Positions 5,233 through 31,800 of a stretch of DNA of 32,605 nt are shown piece after piece. Each line of letters begins with the position of its first letter. Position 1 is the stretch's first letter. This DNA is from Candidatus Gastranaerophilales bacterium (GTDB lineage Bacteria; Cyanobacteriota; Vampirovibrionia; Gastranaerophilales; Gastranaerophilaceae). Under the pieces are notes generated by a model. That model was not told the DNA's origin. It ran no database searches and was given only the letters and a program-made list of their open reading frames with translations. The translations under genes and the position numbers were made by a program. Location of the stretch: positions 1 to 32,605 of the forward strand of contig CALVEO010000020.1 of the NCBI GenBank assembly GCA_944326615.1, in the 5' to 3' direction.

Positions 5233-6494
5233 ATGAAAAGAATTGAGCTGAGAATCGCCCCCCCCCCGAAAAGTCAGGTATAGCAAGGGATTGCGATTTT
5301 GGACTATTTAAAAAGATACTAACATACTGCAGCTCCAGGGCAGTAAGACTTTATTTGGAAGGTAAGCTATTTGGCCGACGGAGGAACGGAGGTCAGGTGG
5401 CCAAGCTATTATCGGTGCTATGCACAAAAATAACTTCTGTAACCAGCCTGCCTTCCTGCCATCAGAATTTCTGTTCTTCTGATTGTTACCCACCCAAGCC
5501 CTCCCTGATCAGGGAGGGAGGATGTTCTCGTAAATCCGATCTACAAGCTAATAACTGTCATTGCGAGCGACAGAATGGAGCGTCGCAATCTCATAATTTA
5601 TGTAATATTAATGAGATTACTACGTCGAATGCTTCGCATTCTCCTCGTAATGACATAGAAAGTTTATGCAGAACTCAGATGGCGGGTGCAGCGGCAACGC
5701 TGCCGCAAAGGGGAGAAGGAATAAGTAAAAAGCTCCTGAAACACAGAGGTCAATCTGACGTTCGTAAGATCCTGAAACAAGTTCAGGATGACAGAAATAT
5801 TTCCCTGAAACCGACTGATTCACTTATTAACCTATTCTCTTATTCACCTCGTAAACGCTGCGCGTTTACGTTGGCAGAGGTCTTGATTACCTTAGGAATT
5901 ATCGGCGTGGTGGCTGCGATGACTATGCCGGTACTTATTGCAAACCATCAAAAAAAACAGGTAGGAGTAAAATTAGCAAAATTTTATTCTGTAATGAATC
6001 AGGCATTAATCCGTTGGGAAAATGAGAACGGAATAATCACAGAAGATATTAAATTCAGTGATCGAACTTCTGATACACTAGCTGCTTGGTATGATGAAGC
6101 TATTGGTAAATATGTACAAACAGTAAAAAAAGAACAAGACAGGCAATATTTAAAAGTCGCATTTAATGACGGTTCAGGATTTGTTGCATATATTCAAAGC
6201 TCTCTGGCTGGTATTTACTTCTTTTACTGCACTGAATATAAATACTGCAAAGAAGAATCTTTTGATGGTAAACGAACTTTTGTATTCTCACTACATAAAG
6301 GCAGATTAGAACCATACGGCAGCCAATATAATTATAGCAGAGAGCAAGTCCTAGAAGCTTGCAAATATGGAAACACAGATGATCCTGAAATAAGCTCTAA
6401 AGGCAGGCGCCATTTTTGCGCCAGACTCATACAAATGGACGGATGGGAAATAAAAGATGATTATCCCTGGAATCAAATTATACTTGAAAATTAA
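5233..6494 (+). CDS. Pilin-like (prepilin N-terminal domain) protein, probably phase-variable, OFF as assembled
   Basis: The ATG at 5233, behind AGGAGG, runs into a ten-C tract (5258-5267) and stops at TAG 5281-5283 (product MKRIELRIAPPPKSQV). The pilin frame is open without a stop from the tract to TAA 6492-6494; one added C (or two removed) would join them into 420 residues. The pilin part starts at about 5865 with RKRCA then FTLAEVLITLGIIGVV, the prepilin cleavage and hydrophobic helix of type IV pilins or type II secretion pseudopilins, with about 209 residues after the predicted cleavage. The 211-codon leader is very long for a prepilin and consists of repeat-derived sequence (for example ILKQVQDD from a palindromic repeat). 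Internal starts such as TTG 5355 or ATG 5679 are possible but lack a Shine-Dalgarno. Substrate and pilus type are unknown. Confidence 0.75.
5258..5267 (+). repeat. Homopolymeric C10 tract after the pilin start codon
   Basis: Ten consecutive C, beginning 25 nt after the first base of the ATG at 5233. Such runs are extremely unlikely by chance in DNA this AT-rich, and the window has only one other of this length, at the second pilin locus. It is a plausible slipped-strand mispairing site. Confidence 0.9.
5340..5850 (+). repeat. Mosaic of dispersed repeats inside the pilin leader frame
   Basis: Pieces of several repeat families seen in the intergenic regions are joined here. They are the GGAAGGTAAGC / GCTATTTGGC element (5358-5405, compare 19276-19297), a perfect palindrome CCCTCCCTGATCAGGGAGGG (about 5500-5519), TCATTGCGAG...CGTCGCAATCTC (5558-5592), ATGGCGGGTGCAGCGGC (5679-5695) and CCTGAAACAAGTTCAGG (5771-5787). 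A palindrome, CGTAAACGC TGC GCGTTTACG, ends the mosaic right at the prepilin cleavage site (about 5850-5870). The pilin frame has no stop across the whole region. Confidence 0.7.
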
Positions 6495-25871: not shown

Positions 25872-25914
25872 TCAGCCCTTATAAACCATTGGAAGAATAA
25901 TGTAACACCTGATT

Positions 25915-26064
25915 GGCGGGTGGAGTTGCACGCTCCTTCTTTAGCTCAGTCCAGCCAAGTTTATGCAAAAATTATGTGGCGGGTGGAGTTGCACGCTCCT
26001 TCTTTAGCTCAGTCCAGCCAAGTTTATGCAAAAACTATGTGGCGGGTGGAGCGGCACGCTCCCT
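25915..26064 (+). repeat. Tandem 63-bp repeat, two full units plus a partial third
   Basis: Units start at 25915, 25978 and 26041. Each begins GGCGGGTGGAG and continues with TGCACGCTCCTTC, TTAGCTCAGTCCAGCC and AAGTTTATGCAAAAA. Units 1 and 2 are nearly identical (one difference near the end). The third breaks off after the CACGCTCC section and runs into CCCTCCCCTGTGGGGGAGG (about 26062-26080). 63 is a multiple of three, and the plus-strand frame stays open as a 21-residue repeat. The surrounding 25872-26256 gap holds nothing else except a possible -10 (TATAAT 26187-26192) for the next gene. Confidence 0.85.
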
Positions 26065-30836: not shown

Positions 30837-30920
30837 GATAGAAGATAAGAAGATAGGAGGGTAAGAAGGTAAGCCTGTTTCGTAAATATTAGTCATTCTG
30901 AACTTATTTCAAAATCTATA
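30837..30920 (+). repeat. Fragments of two dispersed repeats between uppS and rdgB
   Basis: GATAAGAAGATAGGAGGGTAA (split GATAAGAAGATAGG, AGGGTAAGAAGGTAAGC) matches an arm of the hairpin element. GTCATTCTGAACTTATTTCA (from 30892) is a degenerate copy of the palindrome found at 5768 and 15561. Confidence 0.6.
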
Positions 30921-30963
30921 AATGAGCCTATCTCTTATCTTCAAAAAATAACAGGACACTAAT

Positions 30964-31599
30964 ATGAAACAAACAATCGTATTTGCAACAGGCAACGCTC
31001 ATAAATTACAGGAAATAAACGAAATCGCTCAAGGGTCAGATATCGAATTTATCCTGCCTCCTGAAGGTTTTAATCCGATAGAAGACGGTAAAACATTTGA
31101 AGAAAATTCTTTGATAAAAGCACGTGAAGCCGCGCGTGTGAGCGGGATTATGTCATTGGCAGATGATTCAGGATTATGCGTGGAGGTTCTGGGCGGTGCC
31201 CCCGGGATCCATTCCGCAAGATACGCCCAAACAGCCCAGGCACGGATTGATAAATTATTAAATGTTTTAAAAGATGAAAAAAACAGAAAAGCAAAATTTG
31301 TTTGCGCAATGACACTTGTAGATAAAGACGGAAATATTTTGTTCCAAACCCGCGGAGAATGCTACGGGGAAATTGCATATTCACAATCCGGTACAAACGG
31401 CTTCGGTTATGATCCGATTTTTCTGGTTGAAGAGGGTAAAAACGGGAGCGCAGCGACTGACGATAATTTAACAAGTCGGACGGTTGTCAGCGCAGAGGGT
31501 AAAAAAACTATGGCAGATATGTCTGAACAAGAAAAAAATGAAATTTCACACAGAGGCAAAGCATTGAGGAAAGTGCTTGAGTATTTGAATAACAATTAA
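30964..31599 (+). CDS. rdgB: Non-canonical purine NTP pyrophosphatase (XTP/dITP diphosphatase)
   Basis: RdgB/HAM1 hydrolyses dITP and XTP to keep them out of DNA. The 211-residue product has FATGNAHK (7-14), SLADDSGL (64-71), GAPGIHSARYA and NGFGYDPIF, plus the SHRGKAL motif (195-201). It is longer than usual because of 21 extra residues at about 157-177 between FLVEEGK and KTMADMS. In the DNA this is 63 nt bounded by a 12-bp direct repeat, AGAGGGTAAAAA (31431-31442 and 31494-31505). Removing one unit restores a normal family sequence. AGGA precedes the ATG by seven bases. Confidence 0.94.
   Translation: MKQTIVFATGNAHKLQEINEIAQGSDIEFILPPEGFNPIEDGKTFEENSLIKAREAARVSGIMSLADDSGLCVEVLGGAPGIHSARYAQTAQARIDKLLNVLKDEKNRKAKFVCAMTLVDKDGNILFQTRGECYGEIAYSQSGTNGFGYDPIFLVEEGKNGSAATDDNLTSRTVVSAEGKKTMADMSEQEKNEISHRGKALRKVLEYLNNN
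31431..31505 (+). repeat. In-frame 63-bp insertion with 12-bp flanking direct repeats in rdgB
   Basis: AGAGGGTAAAAA occurs at 31431-31442 and 31494-31505. The 51 bases between have inverted pieces (CGACT / AGTCG, CTGAC / GTCAG) suggesting a folded element. The added residues fall in the loop before the SHRGKAL motif. Confidence 0.75.
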
Positions 31600-31600
31600 T

Positions 31601-31800
31601 TTACCCTCTCCCCCAGCCCCTCCCCCGAGGGAGGGGAATTAAGCTCCTTCCCTTAATAGGGGGGATGGGTTTCAAGTTTTTTTAGATTGATAAACTTTTT
31701 GTTACCCACCCCTATCCCCTCCCTAATCAGGGAGGGGAATTGTCAAGTGTTCTCTTTCAAGAGGAGAGAGGAACCTGAGTGGCGGGTAGAGCGGCACGCT
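31601..31800. repeat. GC-rich palindromic repeats between rdgB and the third pilin gene
   Basis: Three CCCTCCC/GGGAGGG palindromes occur, one with CTCCCCCGAGGGAGG at about 31621-31635 and one with CCCTCCCTAATCAGGGAGGG at about 31717-31736. A GTGGCGGGTAGAGCGGCAC unit (31780-31798) of the same family as the tandem repeat at 25915 follows. No gene is supported here. Confidence 0.65.

Follow-up and report, generated by a model that had tools for sequence, protein, structure and literature searches.

Results

An in-frame insert in rdgB

The window analysed here is the whole of a 32,605-bp contig (C20) of a Candidatus Gastranaerophilales genome of 1.96 Mb (G000), and it carries an rdgB gene whose product has E. 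coli RdgB as its best PDB relatives (1k7k and 2pyu, E 5.4e-34 and 6.8e-33). Within this gene two 12-bp copies of AGAGGGTAAAAA, offset by 63 bp, bracket 21 extra codons that leave the reading frame intact (Table 1). The earlier note on this DNA had described such an insert and had seen inverted segments in it, and both observations were borne out, the direct repeats enclosing a core of 51 bp and the inverted segments being the arms of a hairpin. Folding of the whole window unit gave -17.7 kcal/mol (z -2.4), with 5 of 200 shuffles folding equally well. The insert is positioned after GFGYDPIFLV, where E. coli RdgB reads FFVPSEGKTAAEL. In an AlphaFold2 model of the window RdgB (22 sequences, mean pLDDT 85.8) residues 160-177 alone have a pLDDT below 50, and these sit between strands 153-156 and 180-182; the model suggests that the insert forms an extra disordered, floppy loop, the effect of which on RdgB is probably near neutral.

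Table 1. Positions of rdgB, its insert and other repeats in the window
Feature	Position	Strand	Remarks
rdgB (non-canonical purine NTP pyrophosphatase) with insert	30964..31599	+	open reading frame, 211 aa
Left AGAGGGTAAAAA	31431..31442	+	codes for E-G-K; corresponds to native loop motif AEGK of the G015 empty allele
51-bp core, short form of the element	31443..31493	+	match to model R1 at 31446-31505, E 1.9e-14
Hairpin CGGGAGC - GCA - GCGACTG	31443..31459	+	GNA triloop, tandem G.A in stem; from folds and family stem covariation
Right AGAGGGTAAAAA, ribosome-binding-site-like unit end	31494..31505	+	adjoins the start codon in leader copies
63-bp tandem repeat	25914-26062		contains TGGCGGGTgGAGttGCACGCT-like repeats
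Single TGGCGGGTgGAGttGCACGCT-like repeat	31778-31800		near pilin-like gene (31780)
CCCTCCCC...GAGGGAGGGGAATT inverted repeats	31603-31745		behind rdgB
Palindrome TGTCATCCTGAACTTGTTTCAGGATCT	about 5755-5793	-	related palindrome
Degenerate copy of the TGTCATCCTGAACTTGTTTCAGGATCT palindrome	30889-30925	+	in rdgB leader, near 30891

A survey of 39 genomes found rdgB in 33, and 30 of these loci were read, followed later by a further three (G040, G042 and G047). The 21 residues are missing from 28 of the 30 RdgB sequences, being present only in the window genome and in G012, and conservation of the loop across the order is thus rejected; among the three loci read later, that of G042 has the insert and those of G040 and G047 are without it. 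The best empty allele is that of G015 (L006), which reads CTGGTTGCAGAGGGTAAAAGAACTATGG where the window has CTGGTTGAAGAGGGTAAAAA[...]GCAGAGGGTAAAAAAACTATGG. Where the two match, this allele is 91% identical to the window sequence; it reads GCAGAGGGTAAAAGAAC at the insert site and is preceded by an rdgB leader very similar to that of the window.

Anatomy of the repeat unit

The rdgB insert represents a single unit of a repeat family that is dispersed, and amplifies in tandem, in one Gastranaerophilales genus. Units are composed, in order, of (A-run), CGGGAGC, a loop, GCGACTG AC, about 30 A-rich bases and then GAGGGTAAAAA or GAAAGGGTAAAAA, an end that resembles a ribosome-binding site, and they range in size from 63 to about 117 bp. 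The loops fall into classes of 3 bases (GNA in 13 of 20), 4 bases (GAAA, GTAA, GTGA and once TTAG), about 12 bases and 44 to 52 bases, with a few others, and some of the long loops (L129, L151, L156 and L167) contain a second palindrome, ATCCTGAAACAAGTTCAGGAT. The hairpin was examined for covariation in 68 distinct elements at base 6 of the left arm and base 2 of the right arm, both of which had been left free in the search: the pair was G-C in 50 elements, A-T in 13, G-T in three and A-C in two (Fisher p 1.7e-9, a value that ignores the relatedness of the copies). The double change is also evident between leaders of apparent orthologues, L114 having G-C and L159 A-T, and the lpxA leaders are filled by a third arm type, GGAGGC-GAA-GCCTCT. 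RNAalifold returned no pairs for the aligned core A1, which is without the left arm, no clear second helix emerged when the core was scanned for covarying columns, and in single folds of five units z was above -1.1 in three. A search of Rfam with seven loci (19126 bases) gave nothing at gathering level, the best E being 0.063. L074, L076, L096, L125, L107 and L087 were left out of the unit alignment. A related palindrome and a degenerate copy of it, the latter in the rdgB leader, were also observed in the window (Table 1).

Distribution of the repeat family

The core occurs elsewhere in the genome: the 15-mer AGCGCAGCGACTGAC has five exact matches in the 1.96-Mb sequence and one with two mismatches, while its reversed control pattern has no match in the same genome. 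Within the genus GAGCGCAGCGACTGAC was found, at two mismatches or fewer, in 20 of 33 genomes, its control pattern in none of the 33. A sequence-only family model built from 36 cores matched 27 of the 33 genus genomes at E 0.01, at 1 to 43 places each and at 20 in G000. At E 0.001 the core model matched 25 of 146 genomes across the order, namely 16 of the genus, eight other members of the family, in which the matches are weaker (six of these belong to genus g23), and one genome of another family. A scan of a species collection for the 21-letter form gave 14 stretches, of which 12 were attributed to this genus and two are without the rest of the unit; matches to the short pattern in a Tannerellaceae record, a Humidesulfovibrio record and one viral contig are without the rest of the unit and were taken as chance.

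Across the window the family profile matches only 31446-31505. The tandem repeat upstream, the 63-bp unit of which had been noted as equal in length to the insert, possibly by coincidence, has no profile match; kinship was therefore ruled out and the equal length is a coincidence. The TGGCGGGTgGAGttGCACGCT-like repeats found in that tandem and near the pilin-like gene are another dispersed repeat, separate from the hairpin family. Contigs C7 and C73 of the window genome have the same tandem units at their ends, in front of a GGDEF-type gene, and therefore probably join there.

Units in front of genes

The usual place of the units is immediately before a start codon, each unit with its own site, in 1 to 5 repeats. 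The in-frame coding insertion from which this analysis started recurs in several genes (see below), but leaders directly in front of start codons are where the family mainly resides, frequently as tandem arrays. A census of 97 sources comprised 100 arrays, two of which are counted twice as L130 and L176 overlap, with 145 units in all; L074, L076, L096 and L125, which match the pattern but lack the remainder of the unit, and L107, at a contig end, were left out. In 77 of the 100 the array ran up to the start codon of the following gene, made up of 74 leader arrays, each with an open frame behind the start codon, and three of the four cases classed as both. The other arrays were 12 in sense orientation in open frames, one antisense inside a gene, one before a terminator-like hairpin, and nine unassigned ones, which lay at contig ends, were model fragments or had a start codon within the unit. 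From our reading of the translations we take the genes with units in their leaders to include mraY, lpxA, ssb, rpsR, flgB, secF and pth-like genes, and the genes behind units showed no shared functional theme.

The lpxA leader is laid out as promoter, native site, 0 to 5 units and then ATG. Counted by eye in 30 genomes, it contains no unit in 15, one in six, at least one in a further genome in which the contig ends, two in three, three in four and five in the window genome. At the 5′ end of an AMP-ligase-like gene L109 (G016) has one unit and L100 (G007) three, and the start codon that is probably used now falls within the unit, so that the protein begins with a new N-terminus; both empty and filled alleles of this start exist. 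The leaders of ssb, flgB, rpsR and a GGDEF gene hinted at target duplication of a whole leader of 35-45 nt; this was abandoned as a general rule, since neither the rdgB nor the lpxA leaders show it. It is predicted that leader units probably alter translation start.

Units inside genes

Eight independent sense sites inside genes were read, all in one frame: the rdgB inserts, in one loop but in three lineages (G000, G042 and G012), site A (G020 and G044) and site B (G007 and G016) of a gene that we take, from its sequence, to be priA, and copies in ddl (G042), a beta-carbonic anhydrase gene (G010 and G046) and a gene for a hydrogenase-like protein (G009). The insert peptide is xGS/xxATD-like, in frame 0, at all eight. 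Relatives free of the insert were shown for rdgB and priA and are supported by PDB relatives for ddl and the hydrogenase; neither priA site holds anything in 24 of the 29 loci read (29 of 30 loci, G023 being left out). A gene that we presume, again from reading of the sequence, to be TupA-like has the antisense copy: it is empty in G010 and G046, holds one partial unit in G004, and has one further unit in G042, which is joined at TTTTACCCTCTG, the complement of the unit end. At site A the priA gene of G009 (L190) has a different in-frame palindrome, GGAGATTCCGGATCTAGTCCGGAATGACGAA, the other strand of which starts with CGTC.

Among 20 short units located outside genes, the frame used inside genes is free of stops in 13, the other two sense frames in none and two, and the antisense frames, three in number, in between 13 and 17. 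In the window genes the sense strand carries target-like motifs at about three times the density of the other strand. Taken together, motif density and stop-free frames predict about half of the intragenic units to be in sense orientation, and the eight of nine seen represent a modest excess.

Movement of the units

By sequence, the window copy belongs with the unit that precedes rdgB in related species. It has 33 of 34 variable bases in common with the rdgB leader unit of G040, whose core recurs in G020, and 32 with the corresponding unit of G047, as compared to 20 for the next best copy and a median of 15, and units therefore move. Over the 60 bases of core plus end the window copy matches 59 in the G040 leader unit and 57 in that of G047. 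The rdgB leader of the window genome itself has no unit, and this, together with the match to leader units, indicates that a unit of leader type reached the gene body, about half a kb downstream, in the window lineage. In a tree of 27 genomes, constructed from PriA and LpxA, each of the three rdgB inserts belongs to a different clade and has insert-free close relatives, which indicates separate gains of the loop in G000, G042 and G012. Site A of priA is filled in G020 and G044 and empty in G040, the nearest neighbour of G020 in the tree, and this patchiness requires clean loss or exchange. Inverted repeats are located behind rdgB in the window (Table 1), and the rdgB leader of G020 has a piece similar to them immediately ahead of its unit.

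Discussion

The leader repeat is also found inside genes as 21 extra amino acids, and DNA of the translation start thus seems able to spread through the genome. On the whole we lean towards copying between short matching ends as the best explanation of the family. A nascent DNA strand would switch between the end of a unit and some other short sequence resembling it (such as GAGGGTAAAA or GATAAAAAA), copy one or more units and then switch back. Copying at such ends would lead to most copies being located at ribosome-binding sites, with the orientation of the copy fixed by that of the target; it would build tandem arrays and now and then place a 63-nt unit free of stops in a gene loop encoding E-G-K. 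The main result against end-matching copying is that the native priA sequence at site B is without such an end motif; at this site and in ddl the right end is GGTGATG[A/T]AAA and not GAGGGTAAAA, and short matching ends cannot therefore explain everything. The ratio of 8 sense to 1 antisense intragenic sites, being somewhat more one-sided than the predicted half, is also counted against the mechanism, as is the patchy filling of priA site A; on the side of the hairpin, the empty RNAalifold result and the three weak single folds weigh against the explanation. We tentatively suggest, as a possible extension, that the repeat is a self-spreading translation-start module, in which a hairpin with a ribosome-binding site would insert at ribosome-binding sites, supply its own so that the gene stays on, pile up into translation-tuning arrays and spill into genes as stop-free 21-codon units.

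A non-autonomous transposable element (MITE or REP-like), mobilised in trans into A-rich sites by a hairpin-recognising transposase such as a single-strand Y1 enzyme, would agree with the hairpin and its compact loops, the clean filled and empty alleles, the recurrent use of the same rdgB loop and the occurrence of both orientations relative to genes. We nevertheless consider it unlikely, as neither terminal inverted repeats nor a constant target duplication was seen: the units begin with CGGGAGC... and end with ...GGGTAAAAA, which are not inverted repeats, and the 12-mers are direct repeats. The window rdgB looks like a 12-bp target-site duplication, the other sites do not, and the 12-bp repeat, which does bracket the insert as the earlier note stated, is the element's own ribosome-binding-site-like end and not a plain target duplication. 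Y1_Tnp (PF01797), the sole transposase family examined, is present in six of the 33 genomes, the window genome among them, and absent from the copy-rich G009, G010, G046, G047, G020 and G012; with no correlation between PF01797 presence and copies across the 33 genomes, a Y1 transposase was rejected as the mobiliser.

A cis-acting RNA leader regulating translation, propagated by descent and tandem duplication with the intragenic copies as by-products, would fit the constant spacing to the start codon, the covarying hairpin, the ordered variation of the arrays and the position before mraY, lpxA, ssb, rpsR, flgB, secF and pth-like genes. It is, however, absent from half of the lpxA leaders, has neither a common function theme nor an Rfam family at gathering score, and explains function and not spread; we hold it to be quite improbable as an account of the whole, and as far as it goes it is compatible with end-matching copying. 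A local event in rdgB with no tie to other loci, either an ordinary duplication or a random insertion, for which the direct repeats at the insert ends might speak, is refuted by the tens of related copies in the genus, the empty alleles and the near identity to leader units of other species, and can be dismissed.

A close parallel, which had been drawn from the outset, is with the Rickettsia palindromic elements (RPEs), small repeats present in frame in many unrelated protein genes, with a conserved peptide and tolerated in metabolic genes (PMC10969869). The parallel holds in that the hairpin family is also found in frame inside unrelated genes (rdgB, priA at two sites, ddl, carbonic anhydrase and hydrogenase), with one reading frame in every host gene at the eight sense sites and one antisense site besides. 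It does not extend to membership of the Rickettsia family by the features tested: RPEs are given there as about 150 bp (PMC10969869), whereas the unit found here measures 63 bp and has a single hairpin, at one of its ends; CGTC is the terminal sequence of R. conorii RPEs (PMC3733652) and not that of the hairpin units, in which the base next to TGAC is variable; and the family, unlike RPEs, mainly occupies ribosome-binding sites, frequently as tandem arrays. As far as tested, and against the published descriptions, the hairpin repeat therefore behaves like an RPE without being one.

The arrays before genes are somewhat reminiscent of the TAACTGA heptamer repeats of Beggiatoaceae and Cyanobacteria, described as direct repeats that precede start codons, those of essential genes among them, by a few bases, with some copies inside ORFs and a proposed translational role (PMC4679880). 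That repeat is a seven-base unit without predicted structure, whereas units of the hairpin family measure from 63 to about 117 bp, contain a covarying hairpin and bring a site of their own, and the family lacks the full set of tested features of either TAACTGA repeats or RPEs. REPs with a RAYT transposase, tagged GTAG or CGTC, are likewise dispersed hairpins with some copies inside ORFs (PMC3733652); the hairpin family has no tag, and no link to a Y1 transposase was seen. The CGTC start of the G009 priA palindrome is like that of tagged REPs, and the results of the same source list CGTC repeats for five phyla, Cyanobacteria not among them (PMC3733652). MITEs of the BOX, RUP and ERIC type are described, in part in PMC10969869, as intergenic repeats near genes that fold as RNA; for the hairpin family no terminal inverted repeats were found and the units adjoin the start codon. 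A search by title, mostly without subscription journals, of the literature on repeats in Gastranaerophilales or Melainabacteria, on RNA motifs in the former, on small palindromes at ribosome-binding sites and on in-frame insertion with template switching found no report of such a repeat.

If the findings hold, the family represents another protein-editing in-frame repeat outside Rickettsia, here tied to a translation-start signal. The existence of empty and filled alleles makes the mode of spread testable, and the series of 0 to 5 lpxA leader units in related species is a natural experiment on leader arrays and expression. Should the self-spreading module prove true, a single repeat would edit proteins as well as expression levels throughout a genus of gut bacteria.
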